Assembly (NCBI GenBank): GCA_033391075.1
Contig: JAWPMV010000005.1
Coordinates: 248,001-312,000, forward strand
Length of the DNA stretch: 64,000 nt
Source of the DNA: Bacteroidia bacterium
Lineage (GTDB): Bacteria; Bacteroidota; Bacteroidia; J057
Direction: 5' to 3'
Shown: positions 2,254-18,826 of the stretch, in pieces
Layout of the letters: each line of letters begins with the position of its first letter
How positions within the stretch are numbered: the first letter of the stretch is position 1
Made by a program: the position numbers and the translations under genes
The notes under the pieces: model-generated
Database searches by the model: none
What the model was told of the DNA's origin: nothing
What the model saw: the letters and a program-made list of their open reading frames with translations, nothing else

Positions 2254-2259
2254 GGCAGC

Positions 2260-4512: not shown

Positions 4513-4543
4513 GTCCGCTTTTCAGGCAGGACTTAAACAAAAA

Positions 4544-4561
4544 TTAGAAAATAATTTCTAA
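4544..4561. promoter_or_regulatory. Palindromic operator upstream of hypC
   Basis: TTAGAAAATAATTTCTAA is an 18-base inverted repeat with 7-base arms TTAGAAA/TTTCTAA around ATAA. It is the second copy of the operator found at 1466 and 13077. It implies a second promoter inside the hyp gene row, between hypF and hypC. Confidence 0.75.
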
Positions 4562-4597
4562 ACTTCTCATTTCCTTCTTTTTGCCATTTCCTTCCAC

Positions 4598-4604
4598 TAC
4601 TTTG
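4598..4604 (+). promoter_or_regulatory. Putative -7 element of the hypC promoter
   Basis: TACTTTG is close to the Bacteroidota -7 box and begins 45.5 bases downstream of the operator centre, the same distance as at hypB. A shared TTCCTTCTTTTT block (4571-4582) sits in between. Start of transcription is not known. Confidence 0.45.
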
Positions 4605-4653
4605 TATAAACTGCCTCAATCAAGCAGGTATAAAAACGACAATTTCTACTACT

Positions 4654-4947
4654 ATGTGCTTAGCCATACCCGGAAAGATCAAATCCATTGAATCCCAATA
4701 TGACGGCCTTGTACGCATGGCCAAAGTCTCCTTTGGAGGAATAATTAAAGAAGCCAGTTTAGAAATGGTCCCCACTGCTAAGGTGGGTGATTATGTACTG
4801 GTGCATGTGGGAGTAGCGATCAGCATTGTCAAAGAGGAGGAAGCCAAAAAGACCTTTACCTATCTGGAACAGATTGGGGAGCTCGAGGAATTGGGCATGA
4901 TAAAACAGCAGCTCCCGGATCCTTCACAGTATAAAGATGCCACATGA
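4654..4947 (+). CDS. hypC: Hydrogenase assembly chaperone HypC/HupF
   Basis: 97-residue OB-fold chaperone beginning MCLAIPGKI; after Met removal the N-terminal Cys2 binds iron. HypC works with HypD to carry the Fe(CN)2CO unit to the large-subunit precursor. It is slightly longer than typical HypC (75-90 residues) because of an acidic, Gln-rich tail. The stop overlaps the hypD start (ATGA at 4944-4947), so translation is coupled. A dedicated palindrome and -7-like box precede it. Confidence 0.95.
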   Translation: MCLAIPGKIKSIESQYDGLVRMAKVSFGGIIKEASLEMVPTAKVGDYVLVHVGVAISIVKEEEAKKTFTYLEQIGELEELGMIKQQLPDPSQYKDAT

Positions 4948-6056
4948 AATACTTATCCGAATATAGAGACCCGGAATTAGCCCGGCAATACCTCGAAGAG
5001 ATCAAAAAAACTGTAACGCGGCCCTGGACCATCATGGAGGTATGTGGTGGTCAAACCCACAGTTTGGTTAAGCATGGTATCCTCGATGTCCTTCCTCCAG
5101 AAGTTCAAATGGTGCATGGCCCGGGTTGCCCAGTTTGCGTGACTCCGGTCAGCCTGATAGACAAGGCGATCTTCTTGGCTGAGGAAAAAAATGTCATTCT
5201 CTGCTCTTTTGGCGATATGATACGTGTGCCTGGATCAAAAAAGAGTCTTTTGGAATCCAAAGCAGAAGGGGCAGATATTCGCATTTTATATTCTCCTTTG
5301 GAAGCCGTTAAGATTGCGGAGAATAATCCCGATCGGGAAGTAGTCTTTTTTGCTGTCGGTTTTGAAACTACCGCTCCCGCCAATGCCCTCTCGGTTTTGA
5401 CAGCCGAAAGAAAAGGCATCACTAACTATTCTATCCTGGCCTCTCATGTCCTGGTTCCACCTGCGATTGAAGCTGTGATGGAAGATGAAGAAAGCAGCAT
5501 TCAGGCATTTCTCGCTGCAGGACATGTTTGCACCATTATGGGGACCCTGGAATACTACCCCCTCGTAGAGCGTTTCAATATCCCTATGGTTATTTCAGGC
5601 TTTGAGCCCGTTGATCTTTTGCAAGGAATTTTGATGACGATTCGCCAACTGGAAAAAGGAGAAGCAAAAGTTGAAAATCAATATGCCAGAATTGTCGAAG
5701 AAAAAGGAAACCTAATCGCACAGGATACCATTTACAAGGTATTTGAGGTGAGCGATCGCCTTTGGAGAGGTATGGAAGTTATTCCCATGAGTGGATATGA
5801 GGTAAAGGATGCCTATGCGGCCTATGATGCCAAGCGGAAATTTAATGTCAATATCGAAGAAGCCCCTGAACATGAAGCCTGTATCGCAGGTGAAATCATG
5901 AAAGGCATCAAAAAACCGCACGACTGTCCAGAATTTGGGAAAGGCTGTACTCCGCAAATGCCCCTGGGTGCACCCATGGTGAGTTCAGAAGGATCCTGTG
6001 CGGCCTATTACAATTTTTCCAACCTTGTAAACGAATTGGAGCGGGAGAAAATATGA
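4944..6056 (+). CDS. hypD: Hydrogenase maturation Fe-S protein HypD
   Basis: 370 residues, the family length. HypD is the [4Fe-4S] scaffold on which Fe(CN)2CO is assembled with HypC and HypE. Seen: MEVCGGQTH near 31-39, GPGCPVC near 59-66, CSFGDMIRVPGS near 87-98, and the C-terminal cluster cysteines in GKGCTPQMPLG and SSEGSCAAYY. It overlaps hypC upstream and hypX downstream by four bases each (ATGA). No missing key residues. Confidence 0.96.
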   Translation: MKYLSEYRDPELARQYLEEIKKTVTRPWTIMEVCGGQTHSLVKHGILDVLPPEVQMVHGPGCPVCVTPVSLIDKAIFLAEEKNVILCSFGDMIRVPGSKKSLLESKAEGADIRILYSPLEAVKIAENNPDREVVFFAVGFETTAPANALSVLTAERKGITNYSILASHVLVPPAIEAVMEDEESSIQAFLAAGHVCTIMGTLEYYPLVERFNIPMVISGFEPVDLLQGILMTIRQLEKGEAKVENQYARIVEEKGNLIAQDTIYKVFEVSDRLWRGMEVIPMSGYEVKDAYAAYDAKRKFNVNIEEAPEHEACIAGEIMKGIKKPHDCPEFGKGCTPQMPLGAPMVSSEGSCAAYYNFSNLVNELEREKI

Positions 6057-7792
6057 AAATTCTCTTCCTGACATCTTCTTTCAATAGCATGGCCCAGAGG
6101 CTCTGGATCGAACTGGATCGTTTGGATCACCAGGTCAGGGTTCATGTAGTTCAGGAAGAAGTATCCATGGAGGTAGCGGTTGAAGATTTTCAACCCGAAT
6201 TGATCATTGCTCCCTATTTAAGATCAAAAATTCCCAGTCGGATTTGGAAGAATTACCTGACCTGGATTGTCCATCCGGGTCCCCCCGGAGATCGGGGAGC
6301 TTCTTCTTTAGATTGGGCCATAATACAGGAAAAAGAGAGTTGGGGAACTTGCATCCTGGAGGCAGCAGAAAAAATGGATAGCGGAGGCATCTGGGGCTAT
6401 GCCACTTTCAAGATGAGAGCAGGAAGCAAGGCCTCTATTTACCGTCAGGAAAGTACACAAGCAAGTGTAAAAGCCTTAAAACAGGCACTCGAGCATCTGA
6501 AACTACCTGACTTTCGCCCTTTTCGGCCGGAAGAAATACAAGACTCTCCCAAAGGCAAATGGAATCCCAAATGCAAGCAAAAGGATTATGCTATCGACTG
6601 GAACCTATCTGCTGAAGTCCTATTGAAGAAGTTTTGGGCAGCGGATAGTGAACCAGGTGTATCTATTGAATTGAAAGGGCAGCAATACTTTGCCTATGGG
6701 GCTCATTTAGAGGAAAGGTTAACTGGTAAAGCAGGTGAAATTATAGCGAAAAGACATGAGGCGATTTGCATTGCTTGTGGCGAAAAAGCCCTCTGGATTA
6801 CACATCTCAAAAAGGATGCTTCTAATTCCCTCAAATTAGCTGCAAGTAAATCACTGGGAGAGCTCGCCGATCATATTCTCCTTGATGAATTAGATCCTTT
6901 TAGCGCCATATCCTATGAAAGCTTCCGAGAAATTCAGTACACCCAGAAAGGAAAAGCTGGCTATATCAGTTTTGACTTCTACAATGGAGCCATGAATAGC
7001 GATCAGTGCCGGAGGCTGAAAGATTGCATTCAGCAAGCAAAGCAAAGAGATATACAGATTCTGGTGCTGATGGGAGGAAGTGATCTTTGGTCCAACGGCA
7101 TTCACCTCAATGAAATTGAAGCTTCTCAAAATCCAGAAGATGCCTCATGGGAAAATATTCTTGCCATTGATGACCTCATTCAAGAAATCATCCTGAGTCC
7201 GGATCAGTATATCATTTCTGCTATGCGTGGCAATGCTGGAGCAGGAGGAGTACCTATGGCACTTGCCGCAGACAAAATTTTCGCCCGAGAAGGAATCGTT
7301 CTCAATCCCCATACACGACAAATGGGATTATTCGGATCAGAATATTGGACCTATCTATTACCCAAAAGGATAGGGACCGAGAAAGCCACAAGATTTACGG
7401 AAGAATGCTTACCCTGGGGAACCGCAGTTGCCAAAGAAATCGGCTTGATCGATGATGTTTTCGGAGAGGATCAGATAAGCTTCGAAACTGAATTGGATGA
7501 AAGGGTTCAAAAACTGGCTGCTCTCCCCTATTTCGACAAGCTTCTCCTCGCCAAGAAATTACAAAGGAGGAAAGACGAGCGTGTCAAGCCTTTAGAATCC
7601 TACCGAAAAGAGGAGCTGGAGCATATGTGGAAGAATTTTTATGAGAATAATTGGGGATATAAAGAAAAAAGGCAGGCTTTCGTCTATAAAATTCCGATCG
7701 CCTTAGCACAGCATAGTCAAAGAGATTGGTACAGCAGCAGACGCAAAATTTACCGCAGAAGAAAGTGGGAAAGTATTAGCTACAAAGAATAA
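6053..7792 (+). CDS. hypX: HypX, CO-ligand-forming hydrogenase maturation protein
   Basis: 579-residue two-domain protein. The N-terminal half is formyltransferase-like, with HPGPPGDRG at 74-82. The C-terminal half is enoyl-CoA-hydratase-like, with the oxyanion-hole region GNAGAGG near 393-399 and a following LNPHTRQMGLFG segment. In the known family it releases the active-site CO from a formyl group of formyl-tetrahydrofolate via formyl-CoA and is used for maturation under oxygen. It overlaps hypD by four bases and precedes hypE by eight. Its presence implies the enzyme is made under oxic conditions. Confidence 0.93.
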   Translation: MKILFLTSSFNSMAQRLWIELDRLDHQVRVHVVQEEVSMEVAVEDFQPELIIAPYLRSKIPSRIWKNYLTWIVHPGPPGDRGASSLDWAIIQEKESWGTCILEAAEKMDSGGIWGYATFKMRAGSKASIYRQESTQASVKALKQALEHLKLPDFRPFRPEEIQDSPKGKWNPKCKQKDYAIDWNLSAEVLLKKFWAADSEPGVSIELKGQQYFAYGAHLEERLTGKAGEIIAKRHEAICIACGEKALWITHLKKDASNSLKLAASKSLGELADHILLDELDPFSAISYESFREIQYTQKGKAGYISFDFYNGAMNSDQCRRLKDCIQQAKQRDIQILVLMGGSDLWSNGIHLNEIEASQNPEDASWENILAIDDLIQEIILSPDQYIISAMRGNAGAGGVPMALAADKIFAREGIVLNPHTRQMGLFGSEYWTYLLPKRIGTEKATRFTEECLPWGTAVAKEIGLIDDVFGEDQISFETELDERVQKLAALPYFDKLLLAKKLQRRKDERVKPLESYRKEELEHMWKNFYENNWGYKEKRQAFVYKIPIALAQHSQRDWYSSRRKIYRRRKWESISYKE

Positions 7793-7800
7793 GCAGAGAT

Positions 7801-8871
7801 ATGGAAATAGCTCCTAAGAATAAAAAAGCCAAAATGAGGCTGCAGTGTCCCATGCCGAAGTTAACCTTCGACAAAATCACTTTGGGTCATGGCAGCGGAG
7901 GGAAATTGACACATCAATTGCTCGAATCGGGAGTTTTTGACATCCTCAGCAATCCCATTTTGGACAAGCAGCATGACGGAGCCATCATAGAGATGAGCGG
8001 AAAGATTGCCATGAGTACGGATAGCTTTGTGATTTCTCCTGTCTTTTTTCCGGGAGGAAATATCGGGGACCTGGCTGTAAATGGAACAGTCAATGATCTT
8101 GCTATGTGTGGAGCCAAACCCAGATACCTCTCGCTTAGCTTTATTTTGGAAGAAGGACTTAGCATGGAGGAATTTTGGGATATCCTTCTTTCTATAAAAC
8201 TGGCAGCAGAAATGGCTGATGTCCAGATCATCACAGGGGATACTAAGGTAGTTGAAAGGGGAAAAGGAGATAAGATTTTCATCAATACGACCGGAATCGG
8301 AGAACTTCTTCCCGGTGCGGATATTTCCGTTGAGCGCATTTCAGCTGGCGATAAAGTTCTGATCAGCGGGCAATTGGCTGCACACGGAATAGCCATTATG
8401 TCTCTACGTGAAGGACTGGAATTTGAAAGTGATATAGAAACGGATAGCTGTAATCTCAACCACATCATAGCAGCTTTAGTCGAAAACTTTGGGACAGACA
8501 TTAAGCTTCTTCGCGACCCTACCCGAGGAGGCTTGGGCACAGTTCTCAATGAAGTGGCCAAAGGAGCCAATCAGGGAATTCGTATTGAGGAAGGTAAACT
8601 ACCCGTCGATATGCAGGTAAAAGGAGCCTGTGAACTTTTGGGCCTAGATCCCCTCTATGTAGCTAATGAAGGCTTATTTATGGCTGTCGTTTCTCCTCAC
8701 ATTGCCGATGAGGCTTTGGAACTGATCCGCAGTTTTGAATACGGAACTCATGCATGCGAAATCGGAGAAGTTATTGAAGAGCACCCAAAACAAGTCGTCC
8801 TGCATAGTGGTATAGGAGGCAAGCGAGTGATTCATATGTTAGTGGGAGAACAGTTACCCAGAATTTGTTAA
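7801..8871 (+). CDS. hypE: Hydrogenase maturation protein HypE
   Basis: 356 residues, PurM/SelD-like fold. HypE dehydrates the thiocarbamate on its C-terminal Cys to thiocyanate and donates cyanide to the iron. The required C-terminal Cys is present in PRIC at 353-356. Other landmarks: GHGSGGKLTHQL near the N-terminus, DTKVVERGKGD in the middle, and RDPTRGGLGTVLNEVA. The N-terminus extends about 20 residues beyond the usual start; Met12 or Met18 could be used instead. Confidence 0.95.
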   Translation: MEIAPKNKKAKMRLQCPMPKLTFDKITLGHGSGGKLTHQLLESGVFDILSNPILDKQHDGAIIEMSGKIAMSTDSFVISPVFFPGGNIGDLAVNGTVNDLAMCGAKPRYLSLSFILEEGLSMEEFWDILLSIKLAAEMADVQIITGDTKVVERGKGDKIFINTTGIGELLPGADISVERISAGDKVLISGQLAAHGIAIMSLREGLEFESDIETDSCNLNHIIAALVENFGTDIKLLRDPTRGGLGTVLNEVAKGANQGIRIEEGKLPVDMQVKGACELLGLDPLYVANEGLFMAVVSPHIADEALELIRSFEYGTHACEIGEVIEEHPKQVVLHSGIGGKRVIHMLVGEQLPRIC

Positions 8872-8883
8872 GCAAAGATTAGT

Positions 8884-9987
8884 ATGGTGGAAAATACCTC
8901 TATATATAATGAGAGCCTGATCAAAGGCATAGACATCTTCAAAGGAGCAGAAGGCAATCCTTTTTTGGCACCCCGAGGTGTTTTTTTAACGCGAAATAAA
9001 CTCATCGTTTCAGATACGGGACAAAATCGCGTCTTTATTTGGAACGAACTCCCCAAAACCGAATTTCAGGAACCGGATGTCACCCTGGGACAAGAAAGTT
9101 CGGAAGGAGTGGGAAGAAATTCCGGGGGAAAGGTGAGCGCTTCTAGCCTGCTCTATCCGTCAGGAATTTGGTCAAACGGGAAATACCTGATCGTTGCAGA
9201 CGCCTGGAATCATAGAGTACTTATTTGGAATGAATTTCCCCAGAGGGACGGACAGCCCGCAGATGTTGTGTTGGGACAAGAAGATTTCCAATCAAATGAG
9301 CCAAACATCAAAGGCATTGCACATCCCCCTTCTGCCCAATCACTCTATTGGCCTTATGGCGTTTTTTCAGATGAGAAATCTTTGTGGATCGCGGATACGG
9401 GAAATCGTCGGGTACTTTATTTTGAAGAGATCCCGACCACTTCCTTTCAGGCTGCTGATGGGGTAATTGGGAAAGCCTCTTTTGAAGAAAAAGATTATGA
9501 TAATAAAGATGCTATCTGGCCATATTCTGTAAAAGTCTCCCCCAATGGCCAAATGGCGATTACCGATACCCAATATTATCGAGTACTCCTATGGGAGAAT
9601 TGGAAAGATGGGCTTAGGAAAGGAGCAGATACCCTCATCGGCCAAAAGGATTTTGAAGGAAATGGGCAGAATCAATACGCATGGTTTCCTGAAGCCAATA
9701 CCCTCAACTGGTGCTATGACAGCTGCTTTTACAAAGAAGGTCTGTGGGTAGCAGATACAGGTAATAGTCGTATCCTCTGGCATCCAAAAATCCCCAAGGA
9801 AAATAATGCAAAAGCAGATGACCTTTTGGGACAAGATAATTTCAATACCGGGAGCGAAAACAAAAACAGCATTTGGAGTACCGAAAAGAGCTATTACTGG
9901 CCTTTTTCCCTATGCATAGAGGAAGGATACTTCGTAGTAGCTGATACCGGTAATCACAGAATCGTAATAAACCACTTAAAAATATAG
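8884..9987 (+). CDS. NHL-repeat beta-propeller protein of the hydrogenase cluster
   Basis: 367 residues with six NHL-type blades recognisable from D-T-x-N-x-R motifs (SDTGQNRV, ADAWNHRV, ADTGNRRV, TDTQYYRV, ADTGNSRI, ADTGNHRI), alternating about every 60 residues with a G-Q motif (VTLGQ, VVLGQEDF, VIGKASF, LIGQKDF, LLGQDNF). No signal peptide, so presumably cytoplasmic. It sits 12 bases after hypE and directly abuts the nickel permease gene. A protein-binding scaffold role in hydrogenase assembly or electron transfer is inferred only from context. Confidence 0.85.
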   Translation: MVENTSIYNESLIKGIDIFKGAEGNPFLAPRGVFLTRNKLIVSDTGQNRVFIWNELPKTEFQEPDVTLGQESSEGVGRNSGGKVSASSLLYPSGIWSNGKYLIVADAWNHRVLIWNEFPQRDGQPADVVLGQEDFQSNEPNIKGIAHPPSAQSLYWPYGVFSDEKSLWIADTGNRRVLYFEEIPTTSFQAADGVIGKASFEEKDYDNKDAIWPYSVKVSPNGQMAITDTQYYRVLLWENWKDGLRKGADTLIGQKDFEGNGQNQYAWFPEANTLNWCYDSCFYKEGLWVADTGNSRILWHPKIPKENNAKADDLLGQDNFNTGSENKNSIWSTEKSYYWPFSLCIEEGYFVVADTGNHRIVINHLKI

Positions 9988-10593
9988 ATGATGGAAGGAG
10001 GACTAAGTTTGTTATTCGCGGGTTTGATAGGATTTGGACATGCTTTTGAGGCGGATCATCTCCTGGCAGTCAGCACCCTGGTTTCCAAAAGTAAATCCAC
10101 GCGAGAATTGGCGGGTAATGGATTTATCTGGGGCCTGGGCCATACATCGACCATCTTTCTGATTGGCTTGTTATTGATTGTATTCAATGTGCAGGGGCTG
10201 AAAGACTATTTTGAATACTTCGAATTATTGGTCGCCTTTATGTTGATAGCTTTGGGTATAATCAGATTTTTCAAAGATAGATCTCAGCAAGAGGTAGCAT
10301 TTGGAGGAAATACCCGCCGGGAAGCATATGGGATTGGGTTGATTCACGGGCTGGCAGGAAGTGGTGCCCTGGTGCTACTGGTATTGACAGATTTGGATGG
10401 AAAACTCAATGCCTTGAGCTATCTTCTCCTGTTTGGATTGGGTTCTGCTCTAGGAATGTCTTTTGCAGCTTCGGTTTTGCGGATTCCTATTTTGCTAGGG
10501 AAAGCGGATAAAAGCGTAAAAAGAATCTTTTCTATCCTTTCATCCTCCCTATGTATTATCTACGGCTTCATTATTATTGGCCGATTCATTTGA
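9988..10593 (+). CDS. NicO/UreH-type nickel permease
   Basis: 201-residue membrane protein with about six hydrophobic segments. The nickel/cobalt permease signature HxxxxDH appears as HAFEADH at residues 18-24 in the first helix, followed by WGLGHTS with a second conserved histidine at 52. This matches the compact HupE/UreJ/UreH-like members of the NicO group. It starts immediately after the NHL gene stop, so is in the same transcript. Likely role: nickel import for HypA/HypB; cobalt cannot be excluded from sequence. Confidence 0.82.
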   Translation: MMEGGLSLLFAGLIGFGHAFEADHLLAVSTLVSKSKSTRELAGNGFIWGLGHTSTIFLIGLLLIVFNVQGLKDYFEYFELLVAFMLIALGIIRFFKDRSQQEVAFGGNTRREAYGIGLIHGLAGSGALVLLVLTDLDGKLNALSYLLLFGLGSALGMSFAASVLRIPILLGKADKSVKRIFSILSSSLCIIYGFIIIGRFI

Positions 10594-10596
10594 TAT

Positions 10597-10830
10597 ATGG
10601 AAGAGCAATTTGATCCGAGAGAATTCCTGCTGTTTGGGCTCAAGCATTTTGGGATTCAGCTTATCGAGGAGAAAGGGAACATCCTTTACCTTGAACATGC
10701 CTATCAAATCGAAATAGAAGGCCCGTCCTTATTTAAACTTATGCATGAAGGACAGGTCGTTGCTCCCTTTGGAGGAGTAGAAGAATTGTGTGATTTCCTC
10801 AAACAGGATATCCAACTCAATTATGGATAA
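10597..10830 (+). CDS. Small hydrogenase-cluster protein of unknown function (77 aa)
   Basis: A 77-residue soluble protein rich in acidic and hydrophobic residues (FGLKHFGIQLIEEKGNILYL; PSLFKLMHEGQVVAPFGG). No cysteines except one near the C-terminus (EELCDF), no membrane segment, no known motif. It starts 3 bases after the nickel permease and ends overlapping the BFN gene start by 8 bases, so it is translated within the operon. The tight coupling supports a real gene. Function unknown. Confidence 0.7.
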   Translation: MEEQFDPREFLLFGLKHFGIQLIEEKGNILYLEHAYQIEIEGPSLFKLMHEGQVVAPFGGVEELCDFLKQDIQLNYG

Positions 10831-11386
10831 GAAAGAATTAAATATCATTGCCTTATCCAAAAGCCTTTCCAGCAAGGGAAACTTTGTTCTTGTACTGGAA
10901 GAAAATAAAGGCTTCAGACGAATCCCCATAATTATTGGTGCTTTCGAAGCACAGGCCATTGCTCTTGCACTCGAAAGTATGACTACCCCCCGACCTCAAA
11001 CTCATGATCTGGCCATGGATTTGATAGAAGCGGGAGGTTTTGAATTAAAGGAAGTGGTGATTTCTGATTTCAAGGATGAAATTTTCCATGCTCAACTCAT
11101 CCTCAAAAAAGAACAGGAAGAAAAGATTCTGGATGCCAGAAGTTCAGATGCTATAGCCCTTGCTTTGAGACGCCCCTGCCCCATCTTTACTTTTGAACAT
11201 ATCTTACAGGAAACTGGCCTTGTTTTAGACAGTCCTGGTAAATCATTTGGAGAAAAACGCAGGAGCCTGGAACAATATTCCCTGGATGAACTTCAGATGT
11301 TATTAGATAGATTGATCGAAAAGGAGGACTATGAAAGTGCCCGAAAAATCCGGGATATTATAGATAAGAAGACAAATACAAATTAA
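10823..11386 (+). CDS. Bifunctional nuclease (BFN/DUF151) domain protein with UVR motif
   Basis: 187 residues from the ATG at 10823; a longer reading from 10790 adds only out-of-family residues and overlaps the previous gene more. The BFN core is recognisable from RRIPIIIGAFEAQAIALALE and a second conserved block LDARSSDAIALALRRPCPIF. The C-terminal YSLDELQMLLDRLIEKEDYESARKIRDII resembles a UvrB/UvrC-interaction helix pair. BFN-UVR proteins are common single genes in Bacteroidota and are not part of hydrogenase assembly, so its place inside this operon is odd. Overlap with the 77-aa gene indicates co-transcription. Confidence 0.85.
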   Translation: MDKKELNIIALSKSLSSKGNFVLVLEENKGFRRIPIIIGAFEAQAIALALESMTTPRPQTHDLAMDLIEAGGFELKEVVISDFKDEIFHAQLILKKEQEEKILDARSSDAIALALRRPCPIFTFEHILQETGLVLDSPGKSFGEKRRSLEQYSLDELQMLLDRLIEKEDYESARKIRDIIDKKTNTN

Positions 11387-11389
11387 TTG

Positions 11390-11409
11390 TACTTTTGTCT
11401 CTAGAAAAT
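11390..11409 (+). promoter_or_regulatory. tetR1 promoter -7 box and operator half-site
   Basis: TACTTTTG at 11390-11397 matches the Bacteroidota -7 consensus TAnnTTTG exactly. It is followed at 11402-11409 by TAGAAAAT, one half of the cluster palindrome, placed where transcription would begin. The second half is poorly conserved. This suggests a separate tetR1 promoter with possible weak autoregulation. No clear -33 TTTG is seen. Confidence 0.45.
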
Positions 11410-11417
11410 TTATCCTC

Positions 11418-12089
11418 TTGAAGAACAGGGACAAAATACTAACTGCAGCCAAAAGGCTATTCAATGATCATGGCTTCGTAAATGTGCGCCTTCAACACAT
11501 TTCCGATGACACCATTATCAGCGTTGGTAACATTGCCTACCACTTCAAAAATAAAGAAGCTATCGTAAGCCATATATTCGAAGAGCTGGAGCAAAAGCAA
11601 AAAGATCTTCTAATTGAATACAGGCATACCCCCATTTTTGCCAATGTCGACAGAATTTTTTCAGTTTTGAGAGAATTGCAGGAAGAATACAGCTTCTTCT
11701 ACACCGATATTGTCGAAATCAAAAGGTCTTACCCTCTCCTCTTTGAGAAGATAAATCAGTTTTTTCGATATCAGGTATTGCTTTTTGAAGAAATTATTCG
11801 CTTTAATATCTCCAGAGGAGCCCTGCTAAAAGAAGAAACAGAACAACACACGCATTTTCTTGCCTCACTGATCATCAAACATCTGAGCAGTTGGAGAACC
11901 TTCTCCATTACCTGGCTGGAAAATACGAATGAGAACCTTGAAGCTATGTCTGATAGTATTTGGAATATTCTTTTCCCTTACATGAGCAAAAGTGGCAAGG
12001 AAGAATACCAAATTAATAAGGAGCAGAAAGTTAAAATTTATCCCGCCGATAAGATTCATGAGAGCAAGTCTGGACAAAAAGACCTATAA
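11418..12089 (+). CDS. TetR-family transcriptional regulator 1
   Basis: 223 residues from a TTG start chosen because it gives the family N-terminus (KILTAAKRLFNDHGF). The helix-turn-helix recognition region reads ISVGNIAYHFKNK, almost identical to that of the second TetR at 12430 (ISVGNLAYHYKNK). The rest is a helical ligand/dimer domain. It lies 31 bases after the BFN gene, behind its own -7 box. It probably binds the TTAGAAAA palindromes upstream of hypB, hypC and hupS. The ligand is unknown. The last ~30 residues are basic and dispensable-looking. Confidence 0.9.
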   Translation: MKNRDKILTAAKRLFNDHGFVNVRLQHISDDTIISVGNIAYHFKNKEAIVSHIFEELEQKQKDLLIEYRHTPIFANVDRIFSVLRELQEEYSFFYTDIVEIKRSYPLLFEKINQFFRYQVLLFEEIIRFNISRGALLKEETEQHTHFLASLIIKHLSSWRTFSITWLENTNENLEAMSDSIWNILFPYMSKSGKEEYQINKEQKVKIYPADKIHESKSGQKDL

Positions 12090-12411
12090 GTTACTGCTGC
12101 AATTCAAACAGCATTCTATGGATAGCGGTAAGCTGGGAAAGAACCTGGACCTGGATTTTCTTCAGGATGATCTCTGGTTGCAGGATGCCGCAGTTTTTGA
12201 CAGGGTGGTTCGGATAAACGGATCCTGGCAGGTTTTTCTGGTATTTGTTCACTACCGAAATCCTTTGCTTCTCATCAAACGCTTCATCAAATCTCAAATT
12301 TCTCGACAAAAAGCCAAGGTCGACGCCGTTTACATGAAGAGATTGGCTGCAAAAGATCAAAGAGGGACTTTGCATGTCAATCCAGAACTCTACAAGATCT
12401 GCAAAAACTGA
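12058..12411 (+). CDS. Small hydrogenase-cluster protein, family A copy 1 (117 aa)
   Basis: 117 residues from the ATG at 12058, overlapping the tetR1 end by 32 bases; a start at 11992 is possible but overlaps more, and Met21 (12118) is also possible. The C-terminal 81 residues align without a gap to the protein at 16698-17021, with 30 identical positions: DDxWLQxAxV at 37-46, GxWxV near 55-59, SRxKA near 82-86 and KDxRGTL at 99-105, ending YxICxN. No known domain recognised. It lies between the two tetR genes. Predicted soluble and basic at the C-terminus. Confidence 0.8.
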   Translation: MRASLDKKTYKLLLQFKQHSMDSGKLGKNLDLDFLQDDLWLQDAAVFDRVVRINGSWQVFLVFVHYRNPLLLIKRFIKSQISRQKAKVDAVYMKRLAAKDQRGTLHVNPELYKICKN

Positions 12412-12429
12412 TCTTGCTAATGCTTAAGA

Positions 12430-13038
12430 ATGTCTAATACTAAGTCAAAAATACTCTCAGCAGCTCTTGACCTCTTTAATAAAAGTGGCCTCAAAAATAC
12501 GACTCTGCAAACCATCGCAGACGAAGTAGGAATCAGTGTGGGAAACCTTGCTTACCATTATAAGAATAAGCAGGATATCCTTTCCGCACATACAGAAATC
12601 CTGGATGAAAAACTCCAGAAGTCTCTAACGCATTTTCGCAACTTCCCAAATTTCCTCGACTTCCATATACAGCTACAACATATTCTGGAGGTTCAGCAAG
12701 AATTTAGTTACATCTTTAGAAACCAAGGAGAAATCGCCCTCAATTATCCTGAGACATTTGATCTTCTCAAAAGCTTCCGCCAAAAGCTAAAAGCCCAAAT
12801 TGAAAGCAGAATTGAGTATCAGGCCGAAAAAGGACATCTCTTAATTGAGCTGGGAGAGGAAGTCGATTTATTGGCCAATAACCTTACCCACTACATTCTT
12901 TCCTCTCAGATTCATCAATTGTATGAAGAAGAGAAAGATCCTAAACTTCTTTTTAAAAGCCTCTGGGCCCTCCTTAAAACCTATTTGAGCGAACAAGGAT
13001 TGCAAGAATATACCTTCCTCATCCATTCCACTATCTAA
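12430..13038 (+). CDS. TetR-family transcriptional regulator 2
   Basis: 202 residues starting MSNTKSKILSAALDLFNKSG, a standard TetR N-terminus. HTH: TTLQTIADEVGISVGNLAYHYKNK. It is a paralogue of tetR1, similar in HTH and in a mid-protein Q-E-[FY]-S-[YF] segment, but diverged in the ligand domain. It directly precedes the hupSL promoter and its palindrome (13077). Two related regulators with near-identical reading heads in one locus could compete for, or co-occupy, the same operators. Confidence 0.92.
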   Translation: MSNTKSKILSAALDLFNKSGLKNTTLQTIADEVGISVGNLAYHYKNKQDILSAHTEILDEKLQKSLTHFRNFPNFLDFHIQLQHILEVQQEFSYIFRNQGEIALNYPETFDLLKSFRQKLKAQIESRIEYQAEKGHLLIELGEEVDLLANNLTHYILSSQIHQLYEEEKDPKLLFKSLWALLKTYLSEQGLQEYTFLIHSTI

Positions 13039-13060
13039 TCTAGAATAAATCTAAATTAGA
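13034..13060 (+). terminator. Hairpin after tetR2 (possible weak terminator)
   Basis: Stem TCTAATCTAGA (13034-13044) and TCTAAATTAGA (13050-13060), 11 pairs with one mismatch and a 5-base loop, begins at the tetR2 stop codon. It is A/T-rich and a T-rich run follows about 10 bases later, not directly. The arms contain the TTAGA core of the nearby operator, so it could instead be an auxiliary regulator site. Confidence 0.4.
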
Positions 13061-13076
13061 GTATCTTTTCAATTTT

Positions 13077-13094
13077 TTAGAAAAATTTTTCTAA
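13077..13094. promoter_or_regulatory. Palindromic operator upstream of hupSL
   Basis: TTAGAAAAATTTTTCTAA is a perfect 18-base palindrome, the best copy of the cluster motif. It lies 17 bases before a TATACTTG -7-like box (13111-13118) and about 97 bases before the hupS start. Confidence 0.8.
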
Positions 13095-13110
13095 TCAAGT
13101 TTTTTTTGCC

Positions 13111-13118
13111 TATACTTG
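13111..13118 (+). promoter_or_regulatory. Putative -7 element of the hupSL promoter
   Basis: TATACTTG matches the Bacteroidota TAnnTTTG box at seven of eight positions and is the only good candidate between the operator and hupS. The leader to the ATG at 13191 would be about 65 bases. Confidence 0.4.
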
Positions 13119-13190
13119 GATATATGAATTCGTTCATGTGTGAGTTTCTTTAATAATCAACTCACATTTACATCTCATTCTACTACTACA

Positions 13191-14150
13191 ATGGCAAATG
13201 TTTTATGGTTACAAGGAGGAGCATGCAGTGGTAATACCATGTCCTTCCTCGATGCTGAAGAACCTACCGTAGTTGAACTCATTACGGACTTTGGCATAAA
13301 CATTCTTTGGCACCCTACAGTCGGCCTTGAAATCGGTCACCAGGTAAGTGATCTGCTTAATAGCTGTCTCAAAGGTGAAACACAACTAGACATTTTTGTT
13401 TTCGAAGGATCAATTGTTCAGGGACCCAATGGTACCGGGCAAATGAATTTCTTCGCAGATCGTCCCATGAAAGATTGGGTAAAGGAGCTCTCGGAAGTGG
13501 CTCAGTTTGTGGTTGCAATCGGTGATTGTGCTACTTATGGAGGTATTCCTGCAGTTCCCCCCAACCCATCTGAATCAACCGGGATGCAATTTCACAAAAG
13601 AGATAAAGGAGGATTCCTGGGGTCTGGATTCGTATCCAAAGGAGGTTTGCCAGTAATTAATATACCCGGTTGTCCTGCACACCCGGATTGGATCACCCAA
13701 ATTCTTGTAGCCATTTCAACGGGTAGAATTGGAGATGTATTGATCGATCACTACCACAGACCCAAAACCTTTTTCACTGACTTTGTCCAAACTGGATGTA
13801 CCAATGCAGCTGCTTTTGGTGAAAAGATAGATGGAGCCTTTGGAAAAAGAGGAGGCTGTCTCTTCTATGAGGTGGGTTGTAGAGGTCCGATGACTCACGC
13901 AAGTTGTAACCGTATTCTTTGGAATAGACAAAATAGTAAAACCAGGGCCAATCATCCTTGTCTAGGTTGTACAGAACCTGGCTTCCCGCATCATGACCTA
14001 AAGAAAGGCAGCATTTTCAAAACGATGAAATACCTGAATGTCTTTCCGAAAGAAGTGCCCGAGGGAGAAAGTAAACTCGGCTACTATTTTAAAGCTGGAA
14101 TGCACAAGGTATTACCTACCAATAATGCATTGAAAGCTTCCTCCAAGTAA
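13191..14150 (+). CDS. hupS: [NiFe]-hydrogenase small subunit, group 2a-like
   Basis: 319 residues from the ATG at 13191, giving MANVLWLQGGACSGNTMSFL, the start typical of cyanobacterial HupS; a GTG at 13140 would add 17 unlikely residues. There is no Tat signal and no C-terminal membrane anchor, so the enzyme is cytosolic. Cysteines for three Fe-S clusters are present: GGACSGN, GDCATYGG, IPGCPAHPDW, QTGCTN, GCLFYEVGCRGPMTHASCNR and HPCLGCTEPGFP. It transfers electrons from the NiFe site to an as yet unidentified acceptor. Co-transcribed with hupL, 18 bases apart. Confidence 0.96.
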   Translation: MANVLWLQGGACSGNTMSFLDAEEPTVVELITDFGINILWHPTVGLEIGHQVSDLLNSCLKGETQLDIFVFEGSIVQGPNGTGQMNFFADRPMKDWVKELSEVAQFVVAIGDCATYGGIPAVPPNPSESTGMQFHKRDKGGFLGSGFVSKGGLPVINIPGCPAHPDWITQILVAISTGRIGDVLIDHYHRPKTFFTDFVQTGCTNAAAFGEKIDGAFGKRGGCLFYEVGCRGPMTHASCNRILWNRQNSKTRANHPCLGCTEPGFPHHDLKKGSIFKTMKYLNVFPKEVPEGESKLGYYFKAGMHKVLPTNNALKASSK

Positions 14151-14168
14151 ACTCCTAACCGAAAAAAC

Positions 14169-15767
14169 ATGTCTCATATAAAAGAACTTAATATATCTCC
14201 TGTAGGGAGAGTAGAAGGGGACCTGGATGTCAAGGTCTTTATGCAGGATGGCGTCGTCACTCGCGCACATACCCAGGCGGCCATGTACAGAGGCTTCGAG
14301 AAAATCCTCGTGGGTAAAGACCCTCAAGCAGGATTGATTGTTACGCCTCGTGCTTGTGGAATATGTGGGGGCTCGCACCTTTACTGTGCATCTTCAGCAT
14401 TGGATGTTGCCTGGGGCACTACTCTACCCCCTAATGCGCTCTTACTCAGAGCCATAGGACAGGCCACTGAAACCATTCAAAGTATTCCCCGCTGGTTTTA
14501 CGCCATTTTCGCTACCGACTTAGCCAACAAGAAATTTGCCAATAAACCTCTATATCAGGAGGTAGTAAAAAGATTTGCCGCCTATGTAGGTACCTCTTTC
14601 CAAAAAGGAGTAACTGCCTCTGGTAGACCGGTGGAAGTTTATGCCCTCTTCGGTGGACAATGGCCTCACTCAAGCTATATGGTTCCGGGAGGAGTAATGT
14701 GTGCTCCTACACTCAAGGACATTACCCGTGCGCATTCCATTATGAATCATTTCCGCAATGATTGGTTGGAAACTGTTTGGTTGGGTTGTTCTATCGAGCG
14801 CTACCTGGAAATTAAAAGCTGGGATGATATGCTGGCATGGGTGGAAGAAAATGAATCTCAAAGAAACTCTGACCTTGGCTTATTCATCAGAGCCAGTTTG
14901 GAATTTGGATTAGATAAATTTGGACAGGGAGTAGGTAAATACCTCGCATGGGGTACCTATCTACACAAAGATCTTTACCAAAAGCCTACCATAGAAGGAA
15001 GAAATCCTGCTACTATCAGTCCATCCGGATTCTTTGATGGGAAAAATTATCATGAAGCAGACCAAAAGCAGGTAAGGGAACACGTTACCCATTCGTGGTA
15101 TGAAAATCAGGATGATTCTATGCATCCTTTTGATCAGCCAGCTCCTTCGGGTTCTCTTAACTCAACTATTCTCGAAAATACAGACTTTAACGGTAAATAC
15201 TCCTGGGCCAAAGCCCCAAGATTTATGGAGTATGCAGCCGAAACCGGCCCACTCGCACGAGTGATCATGGCAGCTAATCCAGCAAATACCTCCCACCAAT
15301 TCCAGGATCCTCTCTTTGGAGATATCATGGATAAAATGGGACCTAGTGTTTTTACACGTGCTCTGGCAAGGGTACATGAAGCACCCAGACTTTACAATAT
15401 GATCAACAAGTGGTTATCTGAAGTCAATCTGGATGAAGCTTTTTACATCAAGCCAGAAGAAAAAGATGGCGTGGGTTGGGGAGCTACCGAAGCAGCTCGT
15501 GGAGCACTTGCTCATTGGATCAAGATCAAAGATGGCGTAATTGAAAATTACCAAATCATTGCTCCTACTACCTTCAATGTAGGGCCTAATGACAGCCAGG
15601 GTAATTCTGGTCCGATTGAAGCTGCCCTTGAAGGTACAGAAATCGAGGATCCACACGATCCAGTTGAAGTTGGTCTGGTTGCTCGTTCATTTGACAGTTG
15701 TCTGGTATGTACCGTACATGCACATGACGAAAAAACAGGCAAAGAATTGGCAAAATTCAAACTATAA
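14169..15767 (+). CDS. hupL: [NiFe]-hydrogenase large subunit, group 2a-like
   Basis: 532 residues holding the NiFe active site. N-terminal ligands Cys63 and Cys66 lie in RACGICGGSH; C-terminal ligands Cys511 and Cys514 in SFDSCLVCTVH. Both motifs fit the group 2 uptake type. Maturation would cut after His517 and release a 15-residue tail (AHDEKTGKELAKFKL), so a protease is needed and is encoded next. The second ligand motif reads DSC rather than the common DPC, as in cyanobacterial-type enzymes. Reaction: H2 to 2 H+ and 2 electrons. Confidence 0.97.
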   Translation: MSHIKELNISPVGRVEGDLDVKVFMQDGVVTRAHTQAAMYRGFEKILVGKDPQAGLIVTPRACGICGGSHLYCASSALDVAWGTTLPPNALLLRAIGQATETIQSIPRWFYAIFATDLANKKFANKPLYQEVVKRFAAYVGTSFQKGVTASGRPVEVYALFGGQWPHSSYMVPGGVMCAPTLKDITRAHSIMNHFRNDWLETVWLGCSIERYLEIKSWDDMLAWVEENESQRNSDLGLFIRASLEFGLDKFGQGVGKYLAWGTYLHKDLYQKPTIEGRNPATISPSGFFDGKNYHEADQKQVREHVTHSWYENQDDSMHPFDQPAPSGSLNSTILENTDFNGKYSWAKAPRFMEYAAETGPLARVIMAANPANTSHQFQDPLFGDIMDKMGPSVFTRALARVHEAPRLYNMINKWLSEVNLDEAFYIKPEEKDGVGWGATEAARGALAHWIKIKDGVIENYQIIAPTTFNVGPNDSQGNSGPIEAALEGTEIEDPHDPVEVGLVARSFDSCLVCTVHAHDEKTGKELAKFKL

Positions 15768-15797
15768 TGTCATAACTAAAATCATAAAAGATCATGG

Positions 15798-15830
15798 GCC
15801 TGTCCTCCCACTTGGGGAGACAGGCTTTTT
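15798..15830 (+). terminator. Intrinsic terminator/attenuator between hupL and the protease gene
   Basis: Stem GCCTGTC (15798-15804) with GACAGGC (15819-15825), extended inward by CCC/GGG, then TTTTT at 15826-15830. It lies between the hupL stop and the protease ATG at 15842. It would let structural subunits be made in excess of downstream accessory proteins if read-through is partial. Confidence 0.85.
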
Positions 15831-15841
15831 ACATCAAACAT

Positions 15842-16321
15842 ATGGGAAAGATCACGATAATGGGATTTGGGAATCCAGTTCGGGAAGATGATGGAGTAGG
15901 CATTTATGTAATTGAGAAACTGAAGGAGAAAATCGAGCATGAGGACATAGAAATCCTGGATATGGGAACAGCTGCTTTTGAGGTTTTATTTAAGCTTCGT
16001 GGTAGGGAAAGAATCATACTGGTCGATGCCGTAATCAATACTGGAGAGGCGGTAGGTACCCTTTATAAGCTACCTGCTTCGGAGATCAATGCGCATATTC
16101 AAGACGATCCTCTGGTATTTCTCCATAGCTTAAAATGGGACCAGGCACTCAGCTATGCTAAAAAGATTTTGCAAGAAGATTATCCTGAGAATATCGATGT
16201 ATACCTCGTGGCCATAGATAGTACCCGCTTTAATACAGAAATGACCCAAGAAGCCCGTGAGGGTGGAGATAAACTGGTTGATAAAATTCTTGAAGATATT
16301 GACGCAAAGGTCCTAAATTAA
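15842..16321 (+). CDS. hupW: Hydrogenase maturation endopeptidase (HupW/HyaD type)
   Basis: 159 residues from the ATG at 15842; the longer reading from 15794 runs through the terminator hairpin and adds no family sequence. It cleaves the C-terminal tail of HupL after nickel insertion. Seen: GFGNPVREDDGVG near 9-21 (first nickel-sensing acid residue), DMGTAAFE near 40, LVDAV near 62, and HSLKWDQ with the conserved histidine near 90. It follows hupSL behind a terminator-like hairpin and precedes the next gene by 3 bases. Confidence 0.93.
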   Translation: MGKITIMGFGNPVREDDGVGIYVIEKLKEKIEHEDIEILDMGTAAFEVLFKLRGRERIILVDAVINTGEAVGTLYKLPASEINAHIQDDPLVFLHSLKWDQALSYAKKILQEDYPENIDVYLVAIDSTRFNTEMTQEAREGGDKLVDKILEDIDAKVLN

Positions 16322-16324
16322 GAT

Positions 16325-16696
16325 ATGATTATACCTCCCAATAAGGATATCGCCAATCTGTACAAAGCCAAGAAAGCCAAAACTGAAGTCTATTTGGAAG
16401 CTATGCATCTATGCATCGATCAGGAACTTAGTAAGAAGGTTTTCGGGACTAATTTGAGTGTGTATCTCTCGCTGAAAATTGAACACAAATTCATTTTGCT
16501 GGCATCCGTTGATCATGTTTTCTTTAAGAAAATGCATGAATCCAGCCAACATATGCTCAAAATTCGAAATGCAAAAGGAGGCAGCTCGGTTGCATTGCAT
16601 GAAATCCTCATTGACCACGACTTTGACTTAGCAGATGGAGCCTTGAAATACGAGGTTTTGGAGAAAGCAAAAATCCTGAAAGTTCAGCTTACATGA
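16325..16696 (+). CDS. Small hydrogenase-cluster protein of unknown function (123 aa)
   Basis: 123 residues, soluble, mixed alpha/beta in appearance, beginning MIIPPNKDIANLYKAKKAKT. One cysteine (MHLCIDQE). No domain recognised, no signal or membrane segment. It starts 3 bases after the protease stop and ends one base before the next gene, so it is firmly embedded in the operon. Candidate accessory or assembly factor by context only. Confidence 0.75.
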   Translation: MIIPPNKDIANLYKAKKAKTEVYLEAMHLCIDQELSKKVFGTNLSVYLSLKIEHKFILLASVDHVFFKKMHESSQHMLKIRNAKGGSSVALHEILIDHDFDLADGALKYEVLEKAKILKVQLT

Positions 16697-16697
16697 G

Positions 16698-17021
16698 ATG
16701 TACATTGACCCAGATGCTTCTTATCCGCTCACCTTTGAATGTCCGGCTCCTGAAGGGGATTTGGTCTTGCTAAAAGATGATCGTTGGCTACAGAATGCGG
16801 AAGTTCAATATCTGGTCTATGGGAGAAGAGGAAGATGGTATGTGGATATATTATTTTTTGATATTCATGAGGAAATCAAAATCAGGATTCGAAAAATCAA
16901 TGACTATCATTCTCGCAAAAAAGCAGAGACTTTCGCCAGTATTTTTCAAAGAGGGATAAGAAAAGATACCCGGGGAACCCTAAAAAGAAAAAATAATGCT
17001 TACCATATTTGCAACAACTGA
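16698..17021 (+). CDS. Small hydrogenase-cluster protein, family A copy 2 (107 aa)
   Basis: 107 residues. The segment from residue 27 to the end aligns without gap to the protein at 12058-12411 (30 of 81 identical; shared DDxWLQxAxV, GxWxV, SRxKA, KDxRGTL, YxICxN). The N-terminal 26 residues are Pro- and acid-rich and differ. Its end overlaps the TPR gene start by 26 bases. The conserved Trp/Gly/Arg/Cys pattern suggests a folded domain, not a linker. Function unknown; conserved presence in duplicate suggests a specific job in hydrogenase biogenesis or electron transfer. Confidence 0.8.
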   Translation: MYIDPDASYPLTFECPAPEGDLVLLKDDRWLQNAEVQYLVYGRRGRWYVDILFFDIHEEIKIRIRKINDYHSRKKAETFASIFQRGIRKDTRGTLKRKNNAYHICNN

Positions 17022-18483
17022 TTTACATTCAACTATACATGAGATGATTCTTCAGGAGGATCGTCTGGAAGAGCTAATCGAAATTAGGGAAGGGACAGCG
17101 GAAGAAGGGTTTCAGTTTTCAATACATGAAGGAAAGATATCCTTGCCCATTTTCTGGGATAATAGTCTCCCCCCCTATTTATTTCCCCAATCCATTGCAT
17201 TTTCTCCGGAAAATCTTCTGGCACTCATCTTTCATTTTCTGGAAAATGATCCAAAGGCCTGGCAATATGCAGAAGGAGGAGAATTGGCGATGGCTATCGA
17301 AAACCAAAACAGACTCAAATACGGATTTCCCATAGAAAAGCTTCCTGTAGGAAACGAATCTTATGAAAACCTCCATAATTTGGGGGTTATTCATCATTAC
17401 TCTACTCAAAAGCCTGAACCAGTTACAGCTAATTATTCTCTCGCCATAGAAAAAGCTCCAAATGATGATTATGCAGCTTTCAGCCTTAAAGAATTGGCAA
17501 CCTATGAATTGGATAGAGGCAACCTGAGCCAGGCTGAGGCTTATCTGGAAAAGGGCTTGGAGAAATCCCTGTCCGAACAAGCTACTTTCGCCTTAAAATT
17601 TTTACTAGGGAAAGTCTGGATGCAAATGCTCCAGGTACCCTACGATCAAGAATTGCTAAGCAAAGTAAAAGGAATCATTTGGGAGGGAGTTAATTTCTTC
17701 GAAAAATCAGCGAATAAAGGCCAACTGGGCTTATTACTACTGGATGCGACACATATCGCCAACATATCAGAGAGTTATAGCGAGGCTTTAGGCTACATTA
17801 GTAGGGCCATATCGATTTTTGAAGAAGAAGGCTATCAGGAATTAGTCGGAAGTGCGATTTTACGAAAAGGTACCCTGCTATATACATGGGCACAAAATGG
17901 CAATCCACAATTTTATAAATCAGCCGTAGAAGCCTATCAAAAGGCTTTGCAAATTTTCAGCAAAGAAGTCCATCCGGATGTCTTTGCGGATATTCATCAC
18001 AATCTGGCAGTTTTATATGCAGAGATTCCCAGTGATCCCAAAAGGAAAAGCATCTGGGCTGGCGTTTCCTCTGCCTCCTTTCAGGAAGCCCTGGAATTTT
18101 ACACTAAGCAGGCTTATCCCTACCAGTATGGAAGTATCTGCAATAACTATGGAAATGCTTTGATCAAATTTCCCAAAGCGGTACACTCTGACAATTACGA
18201 AAAAGCTATTCAGTACTATAATGAAGCACTATCGGTCCGAACAGCTGATCAATTTCCCTATGAAAGAGCCATTTCGCTGCTCAATTATTTAGAGGCAAGC
18301 TGGAGTGTAGGAAACGATCCGGATCCTGAGGTATTCAATTACATGCGCTTTGAAGATATGTTGGAGAAAGCGAAGGAGGTAAAAGAATTGGTAACTGATG
18401 CCAGCATGATAGAAGAAGCTAATCGTCATCTCCAGAATCTCGAAGAGCTCAGGTCAGTGTCAAATTACAGCGGTCATGCATGA
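16996..18483 (+). CDS. TPR protein of the hydrogenase cluster
   Basis: 495 residues. The C-terminal two thirds has tetratricopeptide-like repeats (DDYAAFSLKELATYELDRG, YKSAVEAYQKALQIF, DNYEKAIQYYNEALSV). The N-terminal ~150 residues are non-repetitive. No signal peptide, so cytoplasmic. The start at 16996 overlaps the preceding gene by 26 bases; an ATG at 17044 (Met17) would avoid the overlap. Its end overlaps hypA by 8 bases. Likely a protein-protein scaffold for hydrogenase assembly or its electron partner; partner unknown. Confidence 0.85.
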   Translation: MLTIFATTDLHSTIHEMILQEDRLEELIEIREGTAEEGFQFSIHEGKISLPIFWDNSLPPYLFPQSIAFSPENLLALIFHFLENDPKAWQYAEGGELAMAIENQNRLKYGFPIEKLPVGNESYENLHNLGVIHHYSTQKPEPVTANYSLAIEKAPNDDYAAFSLKELATYELDRGNLSQAEAYLEKGLEKSLSEQATFALKFLLGKVWMQMLQVPYDQELLSKVKGIIWEGVNFFEKSANKGQLGLLLLDATHIANISESYSEALGYISRAISIFEEEGYQELVGSAILRKGTLLYTWAQNGNPQFYKSAVEAYQKALQIFSKEVHPDVFADIHHNLAVLYAEIPSDPKRKSIWAGVSSASFQEALEFYTKQAYPYQYGSICNNYGNALIKFPKAVHSDNYEKAIQYYNEALSVRTADQFPYERAISLLNYLEASWSVGNDPDPEVFNYMRFEDMLEKAKEVKELVTDASMIEEANRHLQNLEELRSVSNYSGHA

Positions 18484-18826
18484 ATTATCCCTCGTACAAA
18501 GCATTTTCCAAACCCTGGAAAGTGAGCTTTCCCAGGAGGAATTAGCCAAATTAGAAGCTGTAGAACTCAACATTGGATTGTTGGCCAATGTTGAGCCCGT
18601 TCTTCTAAATAATGCCTTCAAAGCTTATCAGGAAACCCGCAATGCATATTTGGGAGTAGAACTTAAAACCAATATGATTCCCATCACCATCAACTGTCCC
18701 AGCTGTAATAAAAAATCTACGATCAAGAATTACGTATTCTTGTGCACGCATTGCGGTACACCCAGCAACCAGATTTTAACCGGAGAAGAACTACTCATTC
18801 ATCGGATTCATTATGCCGAGAATTAG
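18476..18826 (+). CDS. hypA: Hydrogenase nickel-insertion protein HypA
   Basis: 116 residues beginning MHELS, with the nickel ligand His2 and a structural zinc site formed by Cys74/Cys77 (CPSC) and Cys90/Cys93 (CTHC). It transfers nickel with HypB to the large subunit. It is the last gene of the hydrogenase cluster, overlapping the TPR gene by 8 bases, and lies far from hypB. Its stop overlaps the stop of the convergent minus-strand gene. Confidence 0.95.
   Translation: MHELSLVQSIFQTLESELSQEELAKLEAVELNIGLLANVEPVLLNNAFKAYQETRNAYLGVELKTNMIPITINCPSCNKKSTIKNYVFLCTHCGTPSNQILTGEELLIHRIHYAEN

Follow-up and report, generated by a model that had tools for sequence, protein, structure and literature searches.

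Two small proteins encoded in the hydrogenase cluster of a Bacteroidia bacterium, the upstream copy A and the downstream copy B, belong to a real protein family that is without a name and is linked to hydrogenase, and they are probably dedicated helpers that build the enzyme or hold it in place. Both lie in the window, the whole stretch of 64,000 nucleotides analysed here, and an original prediction made from its letters alone had described them as a new small family present twice in the cluster and specific to hydrogenase; the observation proved right and the reading largely so. Open reading frames (ORFs) occur exactly where the two genes had been placed (Table 1), and BLASTP and profile alignment agree that their products are related. 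Residues 31-117 of A align with residues 21-107 of B without gaps, 33 of 87 positions being identical (BLASTP, E = 1e-13), and comparison of a profile of the A kind with a profile of the B kind returned a probability of 99.8% (E = 1.4e-29). As three of the 33 identities fall within the first six columns, the 30 identities predicted for the last 81 residues were recovered, and the motifs listed with them (DDxWLQxAxV, GxWxV, SRxKA, KDxRGTL, and YxICxN) are present. Copies A and B are the sole copies of the family found in the 9.49-Mb genome of the window. A third genome match (E = 0.55) with three internal stop codons was taken as chance, and the product of orf123, tried as a third copy, reached a probability under 3% in profile comparison with A and B, so that relatedness is not supported.

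The view that no known domain is present has stood, with no significant match for A or B in Pfam or NCBIfam and neither protein scoring over the curated cut-off of any family in these libraries. Alignments were built from 56 of the 62 A members (A1), 28 of the 29 B members (A2), and 48 of all 91 members (A3); the B gene of locus L022, which has no good start and a broken end, was excluded both from A2 and from the tree described below. When 48 family members were scanned at E <= 0.01, NCBIfam gave zero matches and Pfam matched one member only (DUF5348, E = 0.0013), while the 48-member profile matched no PDB chain at E <= 10. Scans of A and B with PHROGs and PADLOC yielded nothing credible; a weak Pfam name, Colicin_immun (E = 0.07), and one PHROG without assigned function (E = 0.02) were taken as chance. 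Structure models of A and B reached a mean predicted local distance difference test (pLDDT) of 77 and 71, and in both models helices are predicted to be followed by three strands and a helix. In the model of A, the predicted strands span residues 45-53, 56-64, and 72-80, and the helix spans residues 83-98. Conservation in A is highest at A97-A98-K99-D100-x-R102-G103-T104, corresponding to the end of this helix and the low-confidence tail, and the conserved basic tail of the A kind reads RRxAAKDxRGT. A conserved segment without a fold of its own is often a docking segment, and this tail may be one. Both kinds are mostly basic, with a median isoelectric point (pI) of 9.2 for A and 9.1 for B. The window proteins have no strongly hydrophobic stretch, their highest mean hydrophobicity over 19 residues being 1.2 and 0.5, and neither alignment contains an invariant or nearly invariant cysteine. 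Foldseek returned weak rows only, a mix of double-stranded-RNA-binding domains, RNase H, monellin, and PH domains with none under E 0.001, and VIA-align, applied to A only, gave no Z >= 5.

The link to hydrogenase is observed across genomes. A search of 395 genomes of the phylum with the family profile gave seven matches at E <= 0.01, five of which have E <= 4e-24 and two of which lie near 0.003. HupL, the large subunit, was found at E <= 1e-20 in 104 of the 395. Five of these 104 genomes contain a close HupL (76-100% identity over nearly the whole protein), and they are identical to the five genomes with a strong family match. In the other 99, HupL was matched only in part and at 30-49% identity, which was read as the presence of other hydrogenase groups, and no family match was found in any of them. 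A strong family match is present in 5/5 genomes with close HupL vs 0/390 others (Fisher test, 1e-11, with relatedness ignored). In a sample of 22 genomes of the order, the family was found in 6/6 with HupL vs 1/16 without, and a single-protein search of 295 genomes of the class identified five with a match, each with close HupL. The two weak matches (E of about 0.003) occur in genomes G348 and G503, which have no HupL match, and were taken as chance because 395 × 0.0026, approximately one match, is expected at such E values. No tested cluster gene was detected in the 19-kb stretches around them, and the match in G348 was gone on a repeat search. In small sequence sets, the B profile matched the G503 frame at E values of 4e-6 and 3e-6, over about 40 positions and without the tail motif, so that its assignment to chance is without proof. 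The family is therefore not widespread without hydrogenase, there being no strong match in the 390 genomes outside the close-HupL set, with two weak ones near E 0.003. The predicted specificity is upheld by this co-occurrence, with loci L065 and L137 and genome G207 as exceptions, and the accessory role is a further step that we infer. As for the proposed co-occurrence with group 2a hupSL, the family tracks close HupL; the enzyme is putatively assigned to the Huc/Hup type, group 2a, because of its 60% identity to mycobacterial HupL and the huc-like gene order.

The two copies were then compared among related loci. Species genomes were searched with HupL, and the best 80 of the 302 relatives obtained were kept (77-89% identical; Bacteroidota by title, save L014, titled "bacterium"). 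ORF searches with A and with B each recovered 91 frames, in 73 of 81 loci including the window. Among the eight loci without a match, the sequence upstream of hupL is shorter than 1 kb in six, that downstream is shorter than 0.4 kb in L063, and the eighth is L065. Sixty-one loci, including the window, are flanked by at least 4.5 kb upstream and at least 3.5 kb downstream of hupL. The upstream copy was found in 51 of these and the downstream copy in 25, with both in 16 and neither in one (L065); A alone is present in 35 and B alone in nine, giving at least one copy in 60. L022, tallied as B only, has part of an A gene where its contig ends. The two copies occur together less often than independence would give (Fisher test over the 61 loci, 8.5e-4, with kinship among loci ignored), which fits a single shared job. 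A was also found in the plasmid locus of Runella slithyformis. Cultured Bacteroidota that have both A and B include Runella defluvii DSM 17976 and Runella zeae DSM 19591.

The offset from the B stop codon to the nearest start codon of the TPR gene is constant in 25 of the 29 loci with B, with 26 shared bases; in the window this overlap refers to the listed ATG at 16996, a later start codon being nearer. The end of orf123 lies no more than 30 bases from the start of B, again in 25/29 loci, and orf123 and the TPR gene are both present in all 76 of the 80 loci where either was found. B stays in the slot between protease and TPR gene in the B-only loci as well. On the other side of hupSL, a tetR gene lies no more than 400 bases downstream of A in 58 of 62 loci and upstream of it in 47, and A lies directly upstream of hupS, with no intervening tetR gene, in four (L049, L055, L060, and L068). 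In the window, A starts 32 bases inside the 3' end of the first tetR gene. The neighbours originally described, tetR genes around A and the protease and TPR genes around B, were found; orf123, which stands between the protease and B, had been overlooked.

On the basis of sequence, the family is present in at least two phyla, beyond that of the window. A HupL search of plasmids gave 130 records with a match, 17 of them at 54% identity or more, and seven of these were opened: five non-Bacteroidota records (Mycobacterium intracellulare, Sphingopyxis, Sulfobacillus, Thermus, and Bradyrhizobium) and two from Bacteroidota. The five and the Hymenobacter record, none of which contributed to the profile, were searched whole, and the six gave one match at E <= 1, in the mycobacterial record (E = 3.3e-7). 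The match is a hypothetical gene between the protease and the TPR gene, as is B, and a TPR homologue lies downstream of the protease in all five non-Bacteroidota loci. In Sulfobacillus, the slot is occupied by a single ORF (L134, 10074-10571) with a B-like second half, which scored 37.9 in hhalign, compared with at most 15.9 in 60 shuffles, and which is 34% identical to the mycobacterial protein over 64 columns. The N-terminal part of the same ORF is 38% identical over 92 columns to the slot protein of Thermus, and the latter scored 36.0 against Bacteroidota orf123, compared with at most 18.9 in 60 shuffles. Furthermore, the mycobacterial protease has an orf123-like end (L132, 9680-10453; 37.9, compared with at most 18.9 in 60 shuffles). 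Fusions of protease with orf123 (Mycobacterium) and of orf123 with B (Sulfobacillus) were thus seen, and none of protease with B.

In a midpoint-rooted tree (99 rows, 119 columns), all upstream copies form one branch (97/93) nested within the B copies, and the Mycobacterium-Sulfobacillus pair lies across the deepest split from A and B of Bacteroidota. It is likely that A was derived from B by duplication in Bacteroidota and that B is the older form, since the mycobacterial plasmid locus holds B in the same protease-TPR slot. This direction is likely rather than proven because the root is a midpoint root, several branches are very long, and many forks are weak.

The account that we favour, with modest confidence, is that B takes part in a late step of hydrogenase assembly together with the protease and the products of orf123 and the TPR gene, and that A is its Bacteroidota duplicate. 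It is based on homology, distribution, synteny, and gene fusions, and less firmly on the direction of duplication. The family would serve a single type of [NiFe]-hydrogenase only, putatively the group 2a enzyme. The folded core, predicted as helix, three strands, and helix, would bind the orf123 or TPR partner, while the basic tail, poorly ordered alone, would grip the precursor of a hydrogenase subunit and might hold it until metal insertion and trimming are finished. Duplication of B into the tetR-hupS side would have given A, which may be able to replace B. Physical binding, the subunit bound, the timing, and interchangeability are all points that we infer.

Several observations weigh against this account. 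L065 is a hydrogenase locus without A or B in profile searches, and no B was found in the approximately 275 bases between its orf123 and TPR frame. The plasmid locus of Hymenobacter psoromatis (L137, the whole record being profile-searched) also has the hydrogenase and neither A nor B. Conversely, genome G207, which is near-complete, has no HupL match, and is the one exception among the 16 genomes of the order without HupL, encodes a divergent orphan member (E = 5.7e-11; L140, 9449-9928, minus strand, 159 amino acids) whose tail motif is largely lost; it falls inside the branch of upstream copies in the tree, and its 19.5-kb neighbourhood was searched for 11 cluster genes without a match. When whole records were searched at E <= 1, the B-like half of the Sulfobacillus ORF escaped detection, and single profiles (hmmsearch, filters off) gave it E values of only 0.002 to 0.09. 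The N-terminal part of this ORF scored 12.0 directly against orf123, the shuffle mean being 11.9, so that the link runs via intermediates. In the plasmid loci of Thermus and of two alphaproteobacteria, Sphingopyxis and Bradyrhizobium, an orf123-like protein is present and B was not detected, implying that B is dispensable in some loci. Moreover, no fold can be assigned to A or B, the modelled fold being without a clear match.

In Bacteroidota, A and B might instead be structural components of the mature hydrogenase, as a scaffold or electron-exit adaptor on HupS that does the job of HucM and perhaps of HucE. According to the available portions of the sources, HucM of Mycobacterium smegmatis has its gene immediately upstream of hucS and is required for the oligomer (PMC10017518), and HucE, a putative iron-sulphur protein (NifU/Rieske) of the huc operon, is needed for H2 oxidation (PMC6883350). 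HucM is similar to A in being small and non-catalytic and in its position, A lying upstream of hupS, directly so in the four loci named above, and HucE is, like A and B, a dedicated partner of the same hydrogenase type. HucM-like (DUF1641) genes were found in 3/5 non-Bacteroidota plasmid loci and HucE-like NifU genes in 5/5, vs 0/83 for both in Bacteroidota loci (80 HupL relatives, two plasmid loci, and the window), with four and two single sequences as the HucE and HucM queries and some of the 83 loci incomplete. The genome of the window has no DUF1641 match, and its three NifU matches all lie on another contig. Because such genes were not found near the Bacteroidota hydrogenase, this explanation was retained, as an unlikely one. 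HucM differs in its long coiled-coil tail, which is not in the models of A and B, and the Bacteroidota loci that host A and B are without HucM-like genes; the Mycobacterium and Sulfobacillus loci encode a HucM-like protein alongside B, so that B is no substitute for HucM. No Pfam match connects A or B with DUF1641 (PF07849), and the DUF1641 protein of M. intracellulare, taken as HucM from its position, has no sequence link to either profile, so that a relationship of A or B to HucM is not supported. NifU gave no match to A or B, and no invariant or nearly invariant cysteine is available for metal binding or a redox centre, which separates both from HucE (PMC6883350, available text). The constant protease-TPR position of B in B-only loci likewise argues against a structural part. 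A more specific form, in which A and B would be a new subunit docking on HupS and passing electrons or quinone to the membrane, is considered improbable; if true, it would represent an independent solution to electron exit in an enzyme of the atmospheric-hydrogen type.

Binding of RNA or DNA by A and B, with regulation of the cluster, is also improbable. The predicted order of helix, three strands, and helix is the same as in the fold of double-stranded-RNA-binding domains, the best Foldseek E to these being 0.04 (0.08 in another run), the proteins are mostly basic, and A lies between tetR genes. These structural matches are weak, however, with other folds mixed in and no corresponding sequence match in Pfam; B has no regulator gene beside it and in Sulfobacillus is joined to orf123, and no tetR match was found in five B-only loci (L036, L041, L054, L059, and L062). 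The least probable explanation is that the genes are operon passengers with a role outside hydrogenase assembly. The divergent orphan of G207 without HupL would agree with it, whereas the genomic co-occurrence, the same slot in another phylum, and the fusions linking orf123 with B and with the protease speak against it.

Small helper proteins have been described in other hydrogenase systems. In the extended hyp operon of Nostoc PCC 7120, as far as the available text of the papers states, asr0689 and asr0690 encode two small proteins beside TPR, NifU-like, and NHL genes; they lie between hupSL and the hyp genes and are reported only with uptake hydrogenase, similar to A and B, and the gene set was proposed to assist maturation of the small subunit (PMC2408588, PMC3126725). 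Compared by description only, they differ from A and B in having two predicted membrane regions each (PMC2408588, PMC3126725). HupG, HupH, HupI, HupJ, and HupK of rhizobial-type uptake hydrogenases are, in the portion of the source available, dedicated small-subunit helpers encoded between structural and hyp genes (PMC3126725). A and B have no library match to these in Pfam or NCBIfam. We take HupG to HupK to serve another type of hydrogenase than A and B.

Aerobic bacteria are able to use trace hydrogen through Huc-type hydrogenases (PMC10017518, PMC7784904). The dedicated assembly steps of these enzymes are little known; genes in the protease-TPR slot are labelled "hypothetical" in records and in the accessible parts of papers. 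A hypothetical gene after the protease is induced with the enzyme in Parageobacillus (PMC12976888, in part), group 2a operons are stated to include hypothetical proteins, and a Bacteroidota-associated clade of the enzyme exists (PMC7784904, in part). The slot gene is not mentioned in the available portion of PMC13098282. In the portions available of the literature on Huc/Hup-type clusters, no description of the A/B family was found, its absence from print being not proven. One such slot gene now has a defined family in at least two phyla and a fusion-tied partner, orf123. In addition, the results suggest that the Bacteroidota form of the cluster may manage without HucM and HucE nearby, which puts its route to the quinone pool in question.

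Table 1. Features of the hydrogenase cluster in the window.
Feature	Position	Strand	Length (amino acids)	Remark
NHL-repeat-like protein	8884-9987	+		homologues annotated NHL in five non-Bacteroidota loci
tetR gene 1, upstream of copy A	11418-12089	+		Pfam
Copy A (upstream copy)	12058-12411	+	117	tail here RLAAKDQRGT
tetR gene 2, downstream of copy A	12430-13038	+		Pfam
Hydrogenase small subunit (hupS)	13140-14150	+		NCBIfam
Hydrogenase large subunit (hupL)	14169-15767	+		NCBIfam, HupL searches
Hydrogenase maturation protease (HycI/HyaD kind)	15794-16321	+		Pfam, NCBIfam
orf123	16325-16696	+	123	second small protein without Pfam match; between protease and B
Copy B (downstream copy, probably older form)	16698-17021	+	107	
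TPR-repeat protein	16996-18483	+		Pfam
hypA-like gene	18476-18826	+		similar to annotated hypA in plasmid loci L132, L134, and L135

The cluster extends from about 1543 to 18826 of the window with every gene on the plus strand, in the order hyp genes, NHL-like gene, tetR, A, tetR, hupS, hupL, protease, orf123, B, TPR gene, and hypA-like gene. Most hyp gene names are presumptive, and a large ORF among these genes at 6053-7792 is presumably HypX-like from its sequence. A gene with a bifunctional-nuclease domain (PF02577) is located at 10790-11386, preceded by an ORF of 77 amino acids, and such a gene occurs near the hydrogenase in 24 of 88 loci. In the alphaproteobacterial loci, two similar cysteine-bearing small proteins are encoded in tandem between hupL and the protease (L133, 9686-10395; L136, 9701-10352), and the two of these small proteins that were scanned have no Pfam match. 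A long hupS frame was present in 81 of the 88 loci searched, and in 14 of these 81 hupL is preceded by two, namely L017, L018, L021-L024, L026, L027, L029, L030, L037, L039, L052, and L058. In the five of these 14 loci that were compared, the paired proteins are not the same, and each is full-length and has 9-11 cysteines.

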